Below, one piece after another: positions 54,957-64,000 of a stretch of DNA of 64,000 nucleotides. Numbering within the stretch: the first letter of the stretch is position 1; each line of letters starts with the position of its first letter. Both the position numbers and the translations under genes were made by a program. The stretch is from Acidobacteriota bacterium. Its GTDB lineage: Bacteria; Acidobacteriota; UBA890; WLXD01. Location of the stretch: contig WLXD01000006.1 in the NCBI GenBank assembly GCA_012103255.1, forward strand, positions 1 to 64,000, written 5' to 3'. Under the pieces are notes generated by a model. The model saw only the letters and a program-made list of their open reading frames with translations, searched no databases and was not told the DNA's origin.

Positions 54957-55223
54957 CTATTCCTCGCCGAAGCGAGTGGCGACCAACTGAACGAGCGCGT
55001 TCATCGCGTCATCTTCGTCGCTACCGTCCGTGCTCACGAGTATGTGACTGCCCTGCGGGGCGGCGAGAAGAAGCACGCCGATAATGCTCTTACCATTCAC
55101 GGTCATGGCGTCCTTGCCGACCTGAATATCGCAGTCAAACTCACTGGCGCGGCGAACGAACTTCGCTGCCGCACGAGCGTGCAATCCGAGTTTGTTGAGA
55201 ATCTCTAGTTCTTTCTGAACCAT
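54957..55223 (-). CDS. ptsH: Phosphocarrier protein HPr
   Basis: LNKLGLHARAAAKFVRRASEF (active His) and GKSIIGVLLLAAPQGS (Ser46-type site). Confidence 0.93.
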   Translation of the reverse strand: MVQKELEILNKLGLHARAAAKFVRRASEFDCDIQVGKDAMTVNGKSIIGVLLLAAPQGSHILVSTDGSDEDDAMNALVQLVATRFGEE

Positions 55224-55257
55224 GGCTTGCAGCCCGCCGCGCCCGATGGCGCAGCGG

Positions 55258-55695
55258 TCACACCCCCTCCTGGGCAGACAAGACTTCACTCGCGATGCAG
55301 AGGCTGTTCTGCCCCCGATCTCTCACTTGCCGGACGACTCCGGCCAGATCATCGTCACACCCTTGCAAGTTCGTGAACTTGACCAACATCGGCAAGTTCA
55401 CGCCGGCAATGATCTCGACTCGATTTGCATCGAGAAACGGCAGACAGACGTTCGTCGGCGTGCCGCCGAACATGTCTGTGAACACGATGACACCCGCGGG
55501 CGCGCCAAGCGAGCGGATAGCGTCGGCCACGCGTTCACGCGCGGCATCAACAGGCGCGTCCCAGTCGATAGATACAGCGGTCAGCGCATCCACGGGACCA
55601 ACGATTCGCTCGGTGGCAGCCAGAAGTTCGTCGGCCAGCTTCCCGTGCGTCACCACCACCGCGCCGATCCTGTACGTAGAATCCGCGTCGTTCAC
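55258..55695 (-). CDS. PTS EIIA component, mannose (Man) family
   Basis: IGAVVVTHGKLADELLAATERIVG...GVIVFTDMFGGTPTNVCL. Confidence 0.9.
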   Translation of the reverse strand: MNDADSTYRIGAVVVTHGKLADELLAATERIVGPVDALTAVSIDWDAPVDAARERVADAIRSLGAPAGVIVFTDMFGGTPTNVCLPFLDANRVEIIAGVNLPMLVKFTNLQGCDDDLAGVVRQVRDRGQNSLCIASEVLSAQEGV

Positions 55696-56567
55696 CGCCT
55701 AGCCTCCCGGTCGCCGCCGAGGTCGGTATGCGCAACAGTTGTTGCATAGCCCTGTTGCCGCAGTAGTTCGTCCACCATGCATGCCATCGCCACCGAACGA
55801 TGTCGCCCTCCGGTGCACCCGAATGCCACCGTCAGGTAGGTCTTTCCTTCTGCCGCATATTGCGGCAACAGAAACCTCAGCATCCCGTCCACGTGTTCGA
55901 GAAAGGTCTGTGTCGCCGGCTGCGATTCTACAAACTCCCGGACCGGGCTGTCCAAACCGGACTGCGGGCGAAGCTCGGCCTCATAGTGCGGATTCGGCAG
56001 GAAGCGGACGTCGAAAACCAGATCGGCGTTGGGCGGCACGCCGCGGCGAAACCCAAAACTCGTGAGCGCAATACGCATGCCACGATCGGCGTCCGAACCG
56101 AACCCGCTCATCAGAAACTGGCGCAGCGTCCAGACGTTGTACTCCGTGGTGTCGATCACGTCGTCCGCGTGCTCTCGGATCGGCGCCATCAGTTCACGTT
56201 CGGCCGCGATACTCCGGTCGACCGCCTGTCCAGTCGCCACCGGGTGGGGTCGCCGGGTCTCTGAGAAACGCTGCATCAACGTCGCATCATCGGCATCGAA
56301 GAACAGCAGCCGCGAAGCGGGCTCGTGCTCACGCAATCTCGCCCACGCGGCGCCAAAGTCGTCGAGGAAACCGCCGGTGCGAGCGTCCACCGCCAGGGCC
56401 ACGCGATCGAACGTCGCTCCTCCCCGCTCGGTGAGCTCGAGGAATGTCGCCATCAACGGAGGCGGAAGATTGTCCACGCAGTAGTACCCAAGATCTTCAA
56501 AGACACGCAGAGCGCTGCTCTTCCCGGCCCCGGACATTCCGGAGATCACCAGTACGCGGTCGCTCAC
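55692..56567 (-). CDS. rapZ: RNase adapter protein RapZ
   Basis: LVISGMSGAGKSSALRVFEDLGYYCVDNLPPPL...SFGFRRGVPPNADLVFDVRFLPNP...AFGCTGGRHRSV. Confidence 0.96.
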   Translation of the reverse strand: MSDRVLVISGMSGAGKSSALRVFEDLGYYCVDNLPPPLMATFLELTERGGATFDRVALAVDARTGGFLDDFGAAWARLREHEPASRLLFFDADDATLMQRFSETRRPHPVATGQAVDRSIAAERELMAPIREHADDVIDTTEYNVWTLRQFLMSGFGSDADRGMRIALTSFGFRRGVPPNADLVFDVRFLPNPHYEAELRPQSGLDSPVREFVESQPATQTFLEHVDGMLRFLLPQYAAEGKTYLTVAFGCTGGRHRSVAMACMVDELLRQQGYATTVAHTDLGGDREARR

Positions 56568-57565
56568 TCGAGATCCCCTTCGTCGAGCTCGAATCTGCCC
56601 GCCACGAACTCGGGATTCGCCATGGCCTCCTGCAAGCGCCGCTCGAGCTCGGCCGCTGGATGCAGTCCCTTCAACCGCAGCAGCTGAGAGCGCGCCGCGA
56701 CCTCTACCAGGTTGGCAACCGAGCGCCCCGGCACCACTGGGATTCGAACGATCGGGATCTGGACATCCAGAATCTCGGTGTGCTCCTGATCGAGCCCGAG
56801 TCGGTCGCAGTCGCTCCGGAGGCCCCCCTTGTGTAGCTCCACCACCATCTCGAGCCGCTTACGATGACGGGTCGCGCCAACGCCGAACAGGTGGGCGATG
56901 TTGATGATGCCTAGGCCGCGGACCTCCATGTGGCTCCGGACAAGTTCGGGGCCGCGCCCGACAAGCACCTCAGCCTGGCGACACTGAATCTCCACGATGT
57001 CATCTGACACCAGTCGGTGGCCGCGCATGATGAGCTCGAGGGCGGCCTCGCTCTTGCCGATCCCCGAGTCGCCACGAATGAGCATCCCCACGCCCAGGAC
57101 GTCGACCATGACGGCGTGCACAGTGACACGCGGAGCAAAGAAGTCATCCAGGAAGTGATTCAGCCGATCGATGAACGTCGATGACAGCATCGGGCTGATG
57201 AAGAGCGGCACGGCTCTTTCTTCGCAAAGCTCCACCAGCTGCTGCGGCGGCTCGAGGCCCTTGGTGACCGCCACGCACGTGATGTCGTGGTTGAAGATCG
57301 GCTCGAGAATGGCACGTCTCTCCGCCGCGTCGGTGGCTTCCAGACAGGTGATTTCGGATCGACCAAACACCTGCACGCGGCCCGGATGAATGAACCCGGT
57401 ATAGCCGGCCATCGCCAGGCCCGGTTTCTGGATCCGCTGATGCGTGATGCGTTTGTCCAGGCCGGGCTCGCCAGCGACCAACTCGACAGCGAGGTGCTCG
57501 CGGCCGGTCTCGAGAAGCTCGCCCACGGTCATCGTGGGTCGCGGTTGCGCCGTTTCGTTACTCAC
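56564..57565 (-). CDS. hprK: HPr kinase/phosphorylase
   Basis: GMLIRGDSGIGKSEAALELIMRGHRLVSDDIVEI; MEVRGLGIINIAHLFG; PVVPGRSVANLVEVAA. Confidence 0.96.
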   Translation of the reverse strand: MSNETAQPRPTMTVGELLETGREHLAVELVAGEPGLDKRITHQRIQKPGLAMAGYTGFIHPGRVQVFGRSEITCLEATDAAERRAILEPIFNHDITCVAVTKGLEPPQQLVELCEERAVPLFISPMLSSTFIDRLNHFLDDFFAPRVTVHAVMVDVLGVGMLIRGDSGIGKSEAALELIMRGHRLVSDDIVEIQCRQAEVLVGRGPELVRSHMEVRGLGIINIAHLFGVGATRHRKRLEMVVELHKGGLRSDCDRLGLDQEHTEILDVQIPIVRIPVVPGRSVANLVEVAARSQLLRLKGLHPAAELERRLQEAMANPEFVAGRFELDEGDLE

Positions 57566-57588
57566 CGCGCTTCCCGGTTCATTAACGG

Positions 57589-57927
57589 CTACTGTCCTTC
57601 GGCGGTCGGCGTCGGCGCGCCGGAGTGGCGACGAGCCTCGAGGCGCTTGTCGTGGGCCTTGTGCACCTGCGCGTCGATGCGGTGCAACACATCGCGCACG
57701 AGTTCATCCAGGTCGTGGCTCTCACCGTGCCCCTTGAACGTACCTTCCGGACTCGTGAGCACAACTTCAAGATCGACACGCTGGTGGGTTGGGCCTTCGT
57801 GCCCGACCACAACGTGCGCGTCAGTCGGTTCGCGCAGCAAACGAGCGATCTTATGAAGCTGATCGTCTACGCGCTGCCGGGCCTCATCTGCAATCGGTTC
57901 TCCCCGAAACGTCCAATCGATATTCAT
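57589..57927 (-). CDS. hpf: Ribosome hibernation-promoting factor (short form)
   Basis: MNIDWTFRGEPIADEARQRVDDQLHKIARLL...VDLEVVLTSPEGTFKGHGESHDLDELVRDVLHRIDAQVHKAHDK. Confidence 0.85.
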   Translation of the reverse strand: MNIDWTFRGEPIADEARQRVDDQLHKIARLLREPTDAHVVVGHEGPTHQRVDLEVVLTSPEGTFKGHGESHDLDELVRDVLHRIDAQVHKAHDKRLEARRHSGAPTPTAEGQ

Positions 57928-57956
57928 CGGCGTCCTTCTGAGAGGGCCCCTACCCG

Positions 57957-59405
57957 TCACCCGATGCGACGACGGGCCTTCGAGGCCGGAATGTGCATCT
58001 CTTCACGGTACTTCGCCACGGTCCGCCGCGCGATCTGTAGTCCGCCTTCTTTCAGTCGTTTTGCCACTGCGGCGTCCGAGAGCGGCCGGCGGCTGTCCTC
58101 CGAGTCAATCAGCTTTCGAATCTTCTCCTTCACGCTCACGGAAGAGACATCAGCGCCGGATGCGTGCCCTAGCCCGCTGTGAAAGAAGAAACGCATCTCG
58201 AAGATGCCTTGTGGCGTATGCATGTACTTACCGTTAACGACCCTCGACACCGTCGACTCGTGCATCTCGATGTCGTCGGCGACGTCACGCAGCACCATCG
58301 GGCGCAAGGCAGCCAGTCCGTGCTCCATGAAGGCCTGCTGGTGCTCGACGATGCTCTCGGCCACCTTGCCGATCGTGCGTTGTCGCTGACCAAAGGACTT
58401 GATCAGCCAGAGCGCCGAGCGCAGTTTGTCTTGCAGGTACTCGGCAGCCTCAGGAGAGATTCCACTGTCCGGATCAAGCATCTTGCGGTAGAGGCGCGAC
58501 ACGCGAAGCTTGGGCAGCCCGTCGTCGTTCACCGCCACCACCCAGCTGTCGCCGTCTTGCTTCACGTGCACGTCGGGCGTGATGTACCGCGGAGATTCGT
58601 CGCTGTATTGCTGCCCCGGCTTCGGGTTCAGCGCGCGAACGACCTCCATCGCATCGGCCACTTCGGTCAGTCGAACATGCAGCGCCCGGGCGATCTCCTT
58701 GTATCGATGTGCTTTTACCGAATCCAGATGATCTCGAACCATGGCCACGACAAGACCGTCTGCAAGCCCCAGTCGTTCGAGCTGAAGGAAGAGGCACTCG
58801 CGGAGGTCTCGAGCACCGACGCCTGCGGGATCGAGCTCCTGCACCGCTGCCACCGCACGTTCGACATCTAGCGGCGGCCACGTGCCCATGGCGGCCACTT
58901 CGCCGACGCTGGCCCGCATGTAGCCGGATTCATCGAGGTTGCCAAGCACCGCCTCGACGATCTCCTCGTCGCACGCAAGCTCGGTCATTTCGAGCTGCCA
59001 CGACAGGTGGTCGATAAGCCCCGGTGTAGACGTGAGGGTCGCCTCGAACGTCGGGCCCTCGCGTTCCTCGCTCATGTTCGGGGTCGTCGGCTGATAGTCG
59101 AAGAATTTCTCGAAGAAGGCGTCGGTATCGAGGTTGTCGACTATCTGGTCCTCCGGCGATGTCTCCGTCGATTCAGCCGGTTGCTCCGCCGCCACCTCAA
59201 CGCCATTGGCTTCCTCGCGTTGGACTTCGGTCTCGACGCCAGCTTCTGCTCGATCCTCGAGCACCGGATTCTCTACAAGCTCCTGCTGAAGCGTCTGCTC
59301 CAGCTCCAGCTTGTTCAGCTGCAGTAGCTTGATCGCCATCTGCAGCGCTGGCGTCATCACCAACCGCTGCGAGAGGCGCTGAGAGAGTTTTTGTTGAAGT
59401 GCCAT
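57957..59405 (-). CDS. rpoN: RNA polymerase sigma-54 factor
   Basis: LSQRLSQRLVMTPALQMAIKLLQLNKLELEQTLQQELVENP...MHESTVSRVVNGKYMHTPQGIFEMRFFF...IARRTVAKYREEMHIPASKARRR. Confidence 0.97.
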   Translation of the reverse strand: MALQQKLSQRLSQRLVMTPALQMAIKLLQLNKLELEQTLQQELVENPVLEDRAEAGVETEVQREEANGVEVAAEQPAESTETSPEDQIVDNLDTDAFFEKFFDYQPTTPNMSEEREGPTFEATLTSTPGLIDHLSWQLEMTELACDEEIVEAVLGNLDESGYMRASVGEVAAMGTWPPLDVERAVAAVQELDPAGVGARDLRECLFLQLERLGLADGLVVAMVRDHLDSVKAHRYKEIARALHVRLTEVADAMEVVRALNPKPGQQYSDESPRYITPDVHVKQDGDSWVVAVNDDGLPKLRVSRLYRKMLDPDSGISPEAAEYLQDKLRSALWLIKSFGQRQRTIGKVAESIVEHQQAFMEHGLAALRPMVLRDVADDIEMHESTVSRVVNGKYMHTPQGIFEMRFFFHSGLGHASGADVSSVSVKEKIRKLIDSEDSRRPLSDAAVAKRLKEGGLQIARRTVAKYREEMHIPASKARRRIG

Positions 59406-59423
59406 ACAACCTGGGACGGCTGA

Positions 59424-60203
59424 TCAGTTCAGACTGAAGGATTCGCCGAGATAAACCTTGCGGACCTGTGGATCCTGCTCGAGCTCCCTGGGCGCTCCGG
59501 CCCGAAAGATTTTGCCGTCGGCGATGATGTAGGCGCGGTCGGTGATCCGGAGAGTTTCGCGAACGTTGTGGTCGGTAACGAGAACCCCAATCCCGCGCTG
59601 CTTCAGTTCGCCGACGAGCTGCTGAATATCCGCGATGGCAATCGGGTCAATACCGGTAAACGGTTCATCGAGCAGGAGAAACGACGGGTTCGTCGTCAGC
59701 GCTCGTGCGATCTCCACCCGTCGGCGCTCACCACCGGACAGCGTGTATGCACGGTTCCGGGCCAGGTGAGTAAGTCCAAGGTCCGAAAGAAGTACCTGGC
59801 ATCGCCGACGTCGCTCCTCGCGCGTGAGCCGCAGCCCCTCCAGGATCGCCATCAGGTTCTCTTCGACGGTCAGCCGCCGAAACACCGACGACTCCTGCGG
59901 CAAGTACGAGATGCCGTGACGTCGAGCACGCACGTACATGGGTTCGCGGGTGATATCAGCTCCCCCAACCCGAATCTCCCCAGCTTCGGGACGCACAAGT
60001 CCGACAACCATGTAGAAAGATGTCGTCTTGCCGGCGCCGTTCGGGCCGAGCAGGCCCACGACCTCGCCCTGCGAGATATCCAGTTTCACCCCGTCCACCA
60101 CGCGGTGGCCGCCGTACGCCTTCACGAGCCCGTTCACCTGGAGGCGTCGTGCCGGAATCGCCGGGTCGACCGGCTGTGTGGGTGCTAGCACTGGTTCAGC
60201 CAT
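59424..60203 (-). CDS. lptB: LPS export ABC transporter ATP-binding protein LptB
   Basis: [36 protein letters not shown]...[26 protein letters not shown]...[15 protein letters not shown]. Confidence 0.95.
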
Positions 60204-60464
60204 GGTCAAACGTGGCCTCCAAGGGCCGGAAGGCCCAGTAGCGGGCCCGTATGCACATAGCGTACCAACTTCCACAAGAGTCGGTCAAACACTAAATTTC
60301 TTCGTTGATATCGAATTTATCCTTATTTGATCAATATTTATGGATCCGACAAATCACCACCGCGTCAACCCCCACGCAATGGTCGAGCTGATGCTGCCGG
60401 TGCGTGGCCACGCTTGCCGGATGTCTCCTCTTCGAATCTAGATGACTTCTCGATATTTTCGGTT

Positions 60465-60484: not shown

Positions 60485-60599
60485 CTCCATACTATGCAAA
60501 TCATCGTTTAAGAGCGTGACGAGAACACGTGACGCCAGCATGCCCGTTTGTGGCGCAGGTACCGCGCTCGCCGGACGGCTGCGGCGCCGAGGTCTTGGT

Positions 60600-61049
60600 A
60601 TGAAGCTTGGACAGATCCTGCTACATCAGCGGCGCATCGACCGCGACCAACTTCGCGAAGCCCTGCGCCGACAGCGAAACACCGGCCGACCCATCGGCGA
60701 GATTCTCCTGGGCATGGGTGTGGTCGCACGCGACGACGTTATCGACGGGCTCCTCAAGCAGCCCACAGCTGCCGCCGACGCGGAGACACTGCGCAAGGCC
60801 CGTCCCGAGGTCGCGCAGAGGCTGCCGCGTGAGATCTCGGAGCGCATCGACGCTGTGCTGCTGGTGAAGCGCAAGTCCTGGGCATGCGTCGCGATGAGCG
60901 ACCCGCTCAGCACGGCCAGCAGAGCGCAGTTGGAGTCGATCTTGGGCGTTGCCGTCCTACCCGTCGCGGCCCTGTCCTCTGACCTCGCGGAAGCGCGGGC
61001 ACGGATCTATGCAGCAACCGCGAGCGCTGACGATGACCGCTCACGCTGA
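60600..61049 (+). CDS. Standalone GspE_N/MshEN-like domain protein
   Basis: KLGQILLHQRRIDRDQLREALRRQ and PIGEILLGMGVVARDDVIDGLLKQ tandem 24-aa motifs, then LPREISERIDAVLLVKRKSWACVAMSDPLS...LGVAVLPVAALSSDLAEARARIY. Confidence 0.8.
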   Translation: MKLGQILLHQRRIDRDQLREALRRQRNTGRPIGEILLGMGVVARDDVIDGLLKQPTAAADAETLRKARPEVAQRLPREISERIDAVLLVKRKSWACVAMSDPLSTASRAQLESILGVAVLPVAALSSDLAEARARIYAATASADDDRSR

Positions 61050-63129
61050 ACGCGCCACTCCGGCGGCCGTGCGTGAGTTCCTCACCGCGCTGGATCGAGC
61101 GATTCTCACCTGGGGGATCTATCCGCGGTCGTCCGAGTTCGTCGATGGCGCGGTGCGCGAGGTCGCCGACACCCGTAACGCCATCGGCGGTCCGCTCCGC
61201 CTGGACGTGCGACCGACGCACCTGATCTGGACAGCCAGCAACGAGAGCGGCGATTGCACCGAAGCCGAGGGACTCGCCCGCACTCTCCACTACCAGCAGA
61301 TCGCGAGAGTTACCGTTCAGAACAAGTTCGACGAACGCTCCGGCGGCGCCTTCATCGCAGCGATCGCCGCCGGCAAGAACGAAACTCCCTCGCCGCTGCT
61401 CACCCAGGCGCAGGACGGCCTCGAGGTGGAACCACTCGACGTGGGCGCACTCTTCAGCGACGGAGAACTGGTGGATGGTCAGGACCCATGGACGAACCTC
61501 CTGGGCCGGTTCTCTGCCAATAGCGGTCGCAACACGACATGGCACCAACTCGCGATGGACCCCGACCAGGCTCGCCGTTTCCTCGCGTGGACCGTTGAAA
61601 GCGACAACGACAGCGCCGAGTTGCGTGGCTACGCGGCGCCGGATCGCATCGGTCTCGCCTGCGAGCGCATCCTCGCCGAGACGGATGCGAACGCGGCGCC
61701 CGCCATCGCGCAGGCATGTGCAGGAATGGCGCAACTAGACCCGGAGGTTTGGCTAGAACTCCTGTCCGACGATCTCCCGGTTGGCGAGGAGGAATCCGCG
61801 GTGGATCTCACGAGCGCGATCACGGGTGCGCTCTCACAGCAGCAGGTCCTCAAGATCGCGCGCTACGCCCTTGCTACGCGCTCTGCGCCAACACCGCGTC
61901 TCTACCAGTTCTTCCACCGCATCGTCTCGCAACGGGAGGACGGTGCGGCGCTGACACGGGCCGCGAGCGAACAACAAGTTCCAGCGGGAGGAGCGTGGCA
62001 GGGTTTCGTCGACCTTCTCGACAGCGAAGACTCGAGCGCCTGGGTCTCGCGTGACTACCGCGGCACTCTTGAGACGCCGGATTCGGCACTGCCGAATCCC
62101 GATCAACTGTGGGATTCGTCTCAGCTTCGTCGTCGCTGGGCGGAGATGGACCCAGGATTCGTACGAACGCGGAAAGCCCGCATTCTGGTGGCGCTATTGG
62201 AGCGCGAGACCGAGGACGACGATTACCTCGCCCTCGCCGAGGCCCTCGAGGACACGCTGGCAGATCTCGTCGACATGCGTTGCGCCGATCTTCTGGAAGA
62301 GATCGTTGAGGTCGCCGAAGACCATCGCGAGGACGCCCGGCGTTCTGAGCTGCAGCGTCGACAGGCTGGGCGCCTGCTCAACACGCTCGCCGAACCGGGT
62401 CTGCTCACGCAGATCATCGCGATACTGGCCGATAACAAAGTGTCGGATGACCGCGCGCTTTGGCGCGTCGTCGACACCGTAGGGCCATCGGCAGTTCCGC
62501 ACCTGATTGAAGCCCTGGAGGCCGGGGGTAGCACTGAATTCAGGCGCCTCGTAGCGCGCGCGGTGCGACGCCTACCGTCGCCACCGATCGAGCATCTACG
62601 GCACGCGGTGATGGACGCCCGAGCGCCGATCGCCCGCAACGCGGCCTGGCTGACCGCCCAGCTGTCCCATCCGGAAGCGCCACAGGTGCTAGGAAGGGCA
62701 CTGAAGCACGACGCACCCGAGGTTCGCCGCGAAGCCGTAGTCGGGCTAGCGGCCAGTGCCGAGGAGTTCGCGGAAGAGGCTATCGTCCGCGCTCTTTCCG
62801 ATCCCGTCCTCGAGGTACGCCACGCGGCGGCCGTGGGGCTGCGCAACCGCCTGTCGTCTCGACCGGAGGACCGGGTACGCGAGTACCTTGCGCGCTCGAA
62901 CTGGCACGGACGCAACACCGGCGTGATCGTTGCAGCGGCCCAGGCGCTGGGACACCTAAGCAACGGTGAGTCTCTTCAAGCCCTGCGTCGATTGGCTCAG
63001 CGACCTCTGCTGTTTCGCAAGCGACGACATCGCGTGCAGGCCGCTGCGATCGCCGCGATCGCTGCGATCGAGCAACGAACCTCCCGGGAATCGACGGCGC
63101 CGGAAGCATCGTTGGAGGTGGCGGCATGA
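61033..63129 (+). CDS. HEAT-repeat protein with an N-terminal domain shared with the next gene
   Basis: C-terminal HEAT pattern ALKHDAPEVRREAVVGLAA, ALSDPVLEVRHAAAVGLRN; start overlaps the upstream CDS by 17 nt. Confidence 0.75.
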   Translation: MTAHAERATPAAVREFLTALDRAILTWGIYPRSSEFVDGAVREVADTRNAIGGPLRLDVRPTHLIWTASNESGDCTEAEGLARTLHYQQIARVTVQNKFDERSGGAFIAAIAAGKNETPSPLLTQAQDGLEVEPLDVGALFSDGELVDGQDPWTNLLGRFSANSGRNTTWHQLAMDPDQARRFLAWTVESDNDSAELRGYAAPDRIGLACERILAETDANAAPAIAQACAGMAQLDPEVWLELLSDDLPVGEEESAVDLTSAITGALSQQQVLKIARYALATRSAPTPRLYQFFHRIVSQREDGAALTRAASEQQVPAGGAWQGFVDLLDSEDSSAWVSRDYRGTLETPDSALPNPDQLWDSSQLRRRWAEMDPGFVRTRKARILVALLERETEDDDYLALAEALEDTLADLVDMRCADLLEEIVEVAEDHREDARRSELQRRQAGRLLNTLAEPGLLTQIIAILADNKVSDDRALWRVVDTVGPSAVPHLIEALEAGGSTEFRRLVARAVRRLPSPPIEHLRHAVMDARAPIARNAAWLTAQLSHPEAPQVLGRALKHDAPEVRREAVVGLAASAEEFAEEAIVRALSDPVLEVRHAAAVGLRNRLSSRPEDRVREYLARSNWHGRNTGVIVAAAQALGHLSNGESLQALRRLAQRPLLFRKRRHRVQAAAIAAIAAIEQRTSRESTAPEASLEVAA

Positions 63130-64000
63130 CTCGGCAGGGTTCCACCACGCTCGACCAGGTGCTTCATCACCTTCTCGGGGCGCAACAGACAGCGACGATC
63201 TATCCCCCCGAGCATCCGCGGGTGAGCGGCGCCGTCCGCGAACTGTTCGAACAACTGGTGAGTTTTCTCGAGACGGAAACGGCTCTTCGAATCGCGTACA
63301 CCGGAGATGGCCTGGTGCTCGGCGACGAGTCCGTCCCTATCGCCGGAGATCTCCGTACCGGTGTTGTTCGCATTCTTCAACGGGGTCAGATTGACCGGCT
63401 TGTCTTCCGTCGCGGCGTGCGGCGATGGGAGGTTGGCGCACTGGTTGATGCGTTGGCTCAGCCGGCGAATGCGCCGAGTGTGTGCAGCGCAGAGTTGCTG
63501 GGCGACGCCCGGGTCGAGCACATCGAAGCGGGAGCGCTCGGCAGCGGCGGTGCGCCGACGGACGAAGCCGACGCGACCGGAGAAAACCTCGTCGACGCAT
63601 GGCAGGTGTATTCGCTCGCCACTCGCGCCGTCGAGTCTCTGGCGTCGACGCTTGCCAGCTCCGCTGATGGTGCGGCGGTCGAACAAGCGCGGCGAACCGC
63701 AGGTGAACTCGTGGATGTCGTAGAGCGTCAGCCATCGATGCTCGCCCACATGCGTGACCTCAAAACCCACGACGACTACTCGTATACCCACTCCTTGAAC
63801 GTCGCTCTCCTGAGTACCCGGATCGCCGGCGCCATGGGAGTGCCGCGCCACGTCCTCGAGCAGGTTGCGACTGCCGCCTTGCTCCATGACGTGGGCAAGA
63901 CGCGAACCCCTGACGAGGTCCTCAACAAACCTGGCAAGCTCACGGAGAACGAATGGGAGGTCATGCAGCGGCACAGCGCCGACGGCATGAAGATGCTGGT
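63126..64000 (+). CDS. HD-domain (probable HD-GYP) phosphohydrolase, truncated by window end
   Basis: Frame from ATG 63126: ...DDYSYTHSLNVALLSTRIAGAMGV...ATAALLHDVGKTRTPDEVLNKPGKLTENEWEVMQRHSADGMKML; GYP motif would lie beyond the window. Confidence 0.85.
   Translation, partial: MTRQGSTTLDQVLHHLLGAQQTATIYPPEHPRVSGAVRELFEQLVSFLETETALRIAYTGDGLVLGDESVPIAGDLRTGVVRILQRGQIDRLVFRRGVRRWEVGALVDALAQPANAPSVCSAELLGDARVEHIEAGALGSGGAPTDEADATGENLVDAWQVYSLATRAVESLASTLASSADGAAVEQARRTAGELVDVVERQPSMLAHMRDLKTHDDYSYTHSLNVALLSTRIAGAMGVPRHVLEQVATAALLHDVGKTRTPDEVLNKPGKLTENEWEVMQRHSADGMKML

Follow-up and report, generated by a model that had tools for sequence, protein, structure and literature searches.

The closest described relative of the first protein of this locus is the MshEN domain of VcMshE (5htl), in which two 24-residue motifs, set apart by a 5-residue spacer, are followed by the MshEN_C subdomain. 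Wang et al. (2016) give a relaxed form of the motif, in which position 1 can be K or P and position 10 cannot be Arg (PMC5013675). Mutation of the hydrophobic residues reduced the affinity more than 10-fold, and an earlier study cited in the same paper found that changing R9 cost at most about fivefold in affinity (PMC5013675). In PilF, a Ser at the R38-equivalent residue led to the loss of all measurable c-di-GMP binding (PMC12002112). The third protein is related to the Y/F-subfamily HD-GYP phosphodiesterases PmGH (4mcw) and PA4781 (4r8z). The H277A mutation of PmGH essentially abolishes activity, whereas its GYP-motif Ala mutants stay active (PMC4159591). Bd1817 (3tm8), an unconventional HD-GYP protein without the GYP tyrosine, was reported to be inactive on c-di-GMP.

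In our study, these systems were compared with a cassette of three genes in an Acidobacteriota genome (Table 1). The window (G000:C8:1-64000) is the whole stretch of 64,000 nucleotides that was analysed, from a contig of 314,749 bp; the sequence past position 64000 was read from L006. The sequence-only reading had described three overlapping genes, for an MshEN-like protein, a protein with HEAT repeats and an HD(-GYP) protein. These facts were found to be correct, and all three open reading frames lie on the plus strand. The coordinates of the frames gave operon-like overlaps of 17 nt between the MshEN and HEAT genes and 4 nt (ATGA) between the HEAT and HD genes. The homology of the MshEN gene begins at the ATG at 60600, and an alternative GTG start is possible at 60516. 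The GC3 of the three genes (0.73-0.77) was the coding signature of their neighbours (rpoN 0.75, lptB 0.71). The MshEN protein exceeded the cut-offs of both NCBIfam c-di-GMP_motif NF053729 (51.5 bits, cut-off 38) and Pfam MshEN (35.2 bits, cut-off 23.1). The HEAT protein matched Pfam HEAT_2; its C-terminal part was all-helical in the AF2 model, and its Foldseek matches were HEAT/ARM proteins. The HD-GYP homology of the third protein was supported by phmmer (1e-19 to 4mcw) and by a profile match (1.8e-35).

Five GGDEF proteins were found in the genome, and apart from the cassette it has four MshEN matches, each in a frame also bearing a T2SSE match; c-di-GMP signalling is thus likely in this organism. 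The presence of a c-di-GMP riboswitch close to the cassette was considered and rejected, because an Rfam search gave neither this nor any other RNA element there.

Table 1. Features of the cassette and its left flank (window coordinates unless indicated).
Feature	Position	Strand	Description	Basis
lptB	59424..60275	-	left flank, divergent from cassette; flank kept in G001, G003-G008	
Stand-alone MshEN gene	60600..61049	+	ATG to TGA, 149 aa; putative truncated MshEN-T2SSE ATPase	Pfam/NCBIfam models, tree
MshEN motif I	60603..60674	+	KLGQILLHQRRIDRDQLREALRRQ; R1 to K, G10 to R	alignment to VcMshE 5htl, motif test
MshEN motif II	60690..60761	+	PIGEILLGMGVVARDDVIDGLLKQ; R1 to P, fits relaxed motif (PMC5013675)	alignment to VcMshE 5htl
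MshEN_C subdomain	60795..61025	+	includes Asp aligned with VcMshE D108	Pfam PF05157
HEAT-repeat gene	61033..63129	+	ATG to TGA, 698 aa	Pfam HEAT_2, 52.6 bits
Shared N-domain of HEAT protein	61033..61407	+	YPxxHP type, here YPRSSE	
HD-GYP-derived gene	63126..64000 in window, to 64502 in contig (L006:3126-4502)	+	458 aa	
Shared N-domain of HD protein	63126..63539	+	YPPEHP	
Start of HD domain	63762..64000	+	H189, H221, D222, K225, H250 equivalents in window; H276, Gln for H277, D305, R314 beyond	

MshEN protein: ligand contacts and origin

The two motifs were found at aa 2-25 and aa 31-54, five residues apart, which is the MshEN geometry. When the window was translated in six frames (about 128,000 residues), a loose core motif pattern matched 7 times, with motifs I and II as the only tandem pair. 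In the alignment to 5htl, the VcMshE contacts L10, G11, L25, L29, Q32, G40, G47, L58, Q61 and D108 were kept, whereas L39I, L54V, R9K, R38P and G18R were changed; neither motif thus has the canonical Arg (R9, R38) in its first position. Motif position 10 is Arg in motif I and Gly in motif II. The sequence-only reading had doubted binding because of the Lys and Pro at position 1. Both residues are indeed present, but they are allowed by the relaxed pattern (PMC5013675), and the Gly to Arg change at position 10 of motif I is the more unusual one. A basic residue at this position was also found in the ATPase relatives G006 and G007 and in G003, a genome of the same family. The doubt itself holds, as the R38 equivalent is Pro and PilF needs Arg there; since PilF with Ser at this residue lost binding, the window protein may not bind c-di-GMP at all. 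Folding of the protein is most likely retained, and c-di-GMP binding may be; with the first Arg of motif II gone, the predicted affinity, if any, is probably lower than that of canonical MshEN domains.

Unlike VcMshE, the window protein carries no ATPase, as the earlier reading had stated. A T2SSE domain with Walker A was absent from the gene and from C8:44001-80000, and was present in G006 and G007. In G006 (contig C457), a member of the same order and of the sister family, a gene for an MshEN-T2SSE-zinc ribbon protein of 674 aa is followed by a DnaJ-domain gene and the HEAT and HD genes, and lies divergent from lptB-rpoN-hprK-rapZ. In G007, the MshEN-T2SSE gene adjoins lptB on a short contig (G007:C4). 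These PilB/PilF/GspE-type ATPases are the closest relatives of the window MshEN and occupy the same lptB-flanking locus, but the window protein ends after MshEN_C, without the T2SSE or zinc-ribbon part, and the G003 protein ends at the same point. The match of the window MshEN to the G006 ATPase ended at ATPase residue 129. No remnant of the ATPase or DnaJ gene was found in C8:44001-80000. In the tree, the window and G003 MshEN domains were joined at 99/94, and this group was placed with the G006 and G007 ATPases at 97/94, with other MshEN-ATPases excluded. Because all other MshEN domains in the tree lie in ATPase-length frames, the simplest history is that the stand-alone protein represents the truncated N-terminus of a pilus/T2SS-type ATPase, the ATPase part having been lost in the window's family. 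On this history, the window shows how the receptor domain for a second messenger can be set loose in nature when its enzyme half is lost.

Derivation by loss of an ATPase also agrees with the view that the MshEN gene is a decaying, functionless leftover and that the HEAT-HD pair, if it functions, does so independently of this gene. The ATPase forms have the motif-II Arg and neither stand-alone form does, so it is gone together with the ATPase, and the cassette is absent in a sister species. However, in two genera a stand-alone frame has stayed open, its GC3 is normal and it retains the core residues for binding, unlike a recent pseudogene, and we consider mere decay rather unlikely. The two frames are similar in length and about 42% identical, G003 being the only other stand-alone case and its genome being fragmented and 71% complete, with the HEAT gene split in the assembly.

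HEAT-HD pair and the shared N-terminal domain

The HEAT and HD proteins were found to begin with homologous N-domains of about 120 aa (hhalign 99.6%, E 3e-24). The secondary structure was H-H-E-E-E-H-E-H (H helix, E strand) in both AF2 models, whose mean pLDDT was 79.9 for the HD fragment and 71.9 for the HEAT protein. No match to the domain was found in Pfam or NCBIfam, and no natural chain was matched in the PDB. The one PDB hit at E 2e-5 was to a designed protein over 41 residues and was rejected as a basis for identity. The domain thus lacks a Pfam or NCBIfam model, although the HEAT-HD pair that bears it is spread across Acidobacteria, Omnitrophota, Elusimicrobia and Deltaproteobacteria of the Desulfuromonas type. 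The earlier proposal of a HEAT scaffold linking the proteins is better placed on this common domain, which had been overlooked, and the HEAT and HD proteins probably pair through it.

The association was counted for 82 HD proteins in 80 loci with N-domain profiles that were trained partly on these same proteins. All 16 HD proteins with the N-domain adjoined a second N-domain protein, and a HEAT part was recognised in 15 of these; among the 66 HD proteins without the N-domain, none adjoined an N-domain protein. The window shows the same arrangement, with adjacent HEAT and HD genes each bearing the domain. The HEAT-HD pair is present in at least 15 of 20 further loci of the phylum; four of these have it in tandem or repeated. 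In the rest of the 20, the ORF caller gave one partner only. Named genomes with the pair belong to Acidobacteria, Omnitrophota, Deltaproteobacteria/Desulfuromonas and Elusimicrobia. In a Phycisphaerales MAG (L100), the neighbour of an N-domain HD protein also bears the N-domain, but no HEAT repeat could be recognised in it. By these comparisons the conserved unit is the HEAT-HD pair, which occurs in several phyla and is mostly translationally coupled. Tandem double pairs (HEAT-HD-HEAT-HD) were seen in L088, L190, L191, L194 and L199, all from genomes of the phylum. No published description of the pair surfaced in our literature search; if it were named and tested together with its N-domain, a large number of HD-GYP proteins would gain a partner.

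The three-gene synteny expected by the sequence-only reading was therefore upheld for HEAT and HD and not for MshEN, which was found in none of the 20 phylum loci. Outside the window's order, no MshEN gene was found in the same operon as a HEAT-HD pair in the examined loci. With one convergent neighbour among the named loci, MshEN was rejected as a general member of the HEAT-HD locus. This neighbour, an MshEN-T2SSE ATPase gene of another bacterium (L099:3088-4977, minus strand), has its stop codon abutting that of a HEAT-HD pair. It may be a chance arrangement or possibly a second link; with some five MshEN genes per genome, a rough estimate puts it not beyond chance. The DnaJ gene was not found in the named HEAT-HD loci; it was therefore rejected as part of the wide module, and its association is probably specific to the window's order.

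Catalytic site of the HD protein

The HD-GYP-type domain named by the sequence-only reading was recovered, but the HHExxDGxGYP motif that it looked for beyond position 64000 is absent. The region reads YEHQLAYEQDNPDHG; the stretch compared with the motif is EHQLAYEQDNPDHG, and the GYP loop is YEQDNPDHG. In comparison with PmGH, H189, H221, D222, K225, H250, H276, D305, D308 and R314 were kept, whereas E185 is substituted by Tyr and H277 by Gln. The metal ligands H189, H221, D222, H250, H276 and D305 are thus in place, and the Gln at H277 leaves the full ligand set incomplete. The G003 HD protein has the same EHQ, and the H277 to Gln change was found in the window and G003 only. Other members of the order kept HH and lacked GYP; both HH and GYP were kept in all distant proteins aligned. 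The loss of GYP alone is no proof of inactivity, because the PmGH GYP-motif Ala mutants kept activity; the loss of H277 is the stronger evidence, because H277A essentially abolishes hydrolysis. As both are lost, normal c-di-GMP phosphodiesterase activity of the window HD protein is unlikely.

The likeness to PmGH and PA4781 lies in the HD fold and in most of the metal and substrate ligands. The window protein differs from them by the Gln at H277, the missing GYP, the Tyr at E185 and an unnamed N-domain replacing GAF or REC. Bd1817 shares the HD-GYP fold and a degenerate GYP loop, with a weak fold match of the model; the sequence match is restricted to the HD part and the residue losses differ. 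Foldseek with the HD fragment returned HD-GYP entries only, with poor TM-scores.

The kept residues H189, H221, D222, H250, H276, D305, K225, D308 and R314 are more than a dead enzyme predicts, and Tyr at E185 is the usual state of the Y/F subfamily. The HD protein could accordingly still be a phosphohydrolase acting on another substrate, such as another cyclic or linear dinucleotide, with Gln or water replacing H277 at the metal. Gln can occasionally ligate metal. However, H277 was lost only in the window's family and the unconventional Bd1817 is reported to be inactive on c-di-GMP, so that this reading appears doubtful.

A working cassette, as proposed by the sequence-only reading, would have the stand-alone MshEN protein bind c-di-GMP and control an active HD-GYP phosphodiesterase through the HEAT scaffold. 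The MshEN matches above curated cut-offs, the gene overlaps, the five GGDEF proteins, by which c-di-GMP is probably made, and the six of eight PmGH metal ligands kept along with K225, D308 and R314 are in line with it, and MshEN-HD-GYP fusions were already reported by Wang et al. (PMC5013675). The Gln at H277, the absent GYP motif, the Pro at R38 and the absence of MshEN from every other examined HEAT-HD operon outside the order argue against it, and we regard it as decidedly unlikely.

Proposed explanation and site of the cassette

On balance, we favour with modest confidence a degenerated, lineage-specific form of the HEAT/HD module that carries a truncated MshEN relic. The HEAT-repeat and HD-GYP-type proteins, made from overlapping genes, would associate through their homologous N-domains; the HEAT array may bind another partner, with nucleotide handling left to the HD domain. 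An MshEN-T2SSE (PilB/GspE-like) ATPase is encoded upstream in the order to which the window belongs, and in one relative the DnaJ-domain gene stands between. A deletion in the window's family would have taken out the ATPase domain along with any DnaJ gene, so that a 149-aa MshEN protein is left, its 3' end overlapping the HEAT gene. This protein would fold and may still bind c-di-GMP, more weakly. As its GYP motif and H277 are lost, the HD protein most likely is not a normal c-di-GMP phosphodiesterase and may instead bind a ligand or partner or perform altered chemistry. No pathway for an output of such a complex emerged from the genome context. The anatomy, homology, synteny, truncation, residue losses and empty site are what the comparisons show; pairing by the N-domains, weak binding that persists, the loss of normal catalysis and any output are inferred. 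More tentatively, the pair could represent a new bacterial signalling module over several phyla, with HEAT and HD-GYP-type proteins dimerising by the N-domain, to which this lineage added a freed MshEN receptor and in which HD became a non-hydrolysing receptor; taken as a whole, this appears fairly improbable.

The cassette was found to be absent from relatives with the same flanks. In G001, a species of the same genus, lptCA is followed directly by lptB, and its flanks align at 76-77% to both window junctions; G004 and G005 show the same empty site. In G008, only the DnaJ gene is left between lptCA and lptB. The same-genus empty site indicates that the cassette is dispensable, and its distribution points to several losses or else several insertions. 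Since both families have it at the same site, an old insertion that was later lost more than once is favoured.

The DnaJ-domain protein, of 260-288 aa (L074:11473-12255, L179:7369-8235), belongs to the ATPase-HEAT-HD cluster in G006 and stands alone in G008. On the left, the minus-strand block lptB-rpoN-hpf-hprK-rapZ-PTS IIA-HPr (54957-60275) is ordinary, with a similar order in relatives. On the right, a convergent minus-strand gene (contig 64481-66616, L006:4481-6616) shares 22 nt with the 3' end of the HD gene; it encodes a protein of 711 aa with LptC-like and LptD_N/LptA-like matches and is an unusually long gene of the lptC/lptA type.
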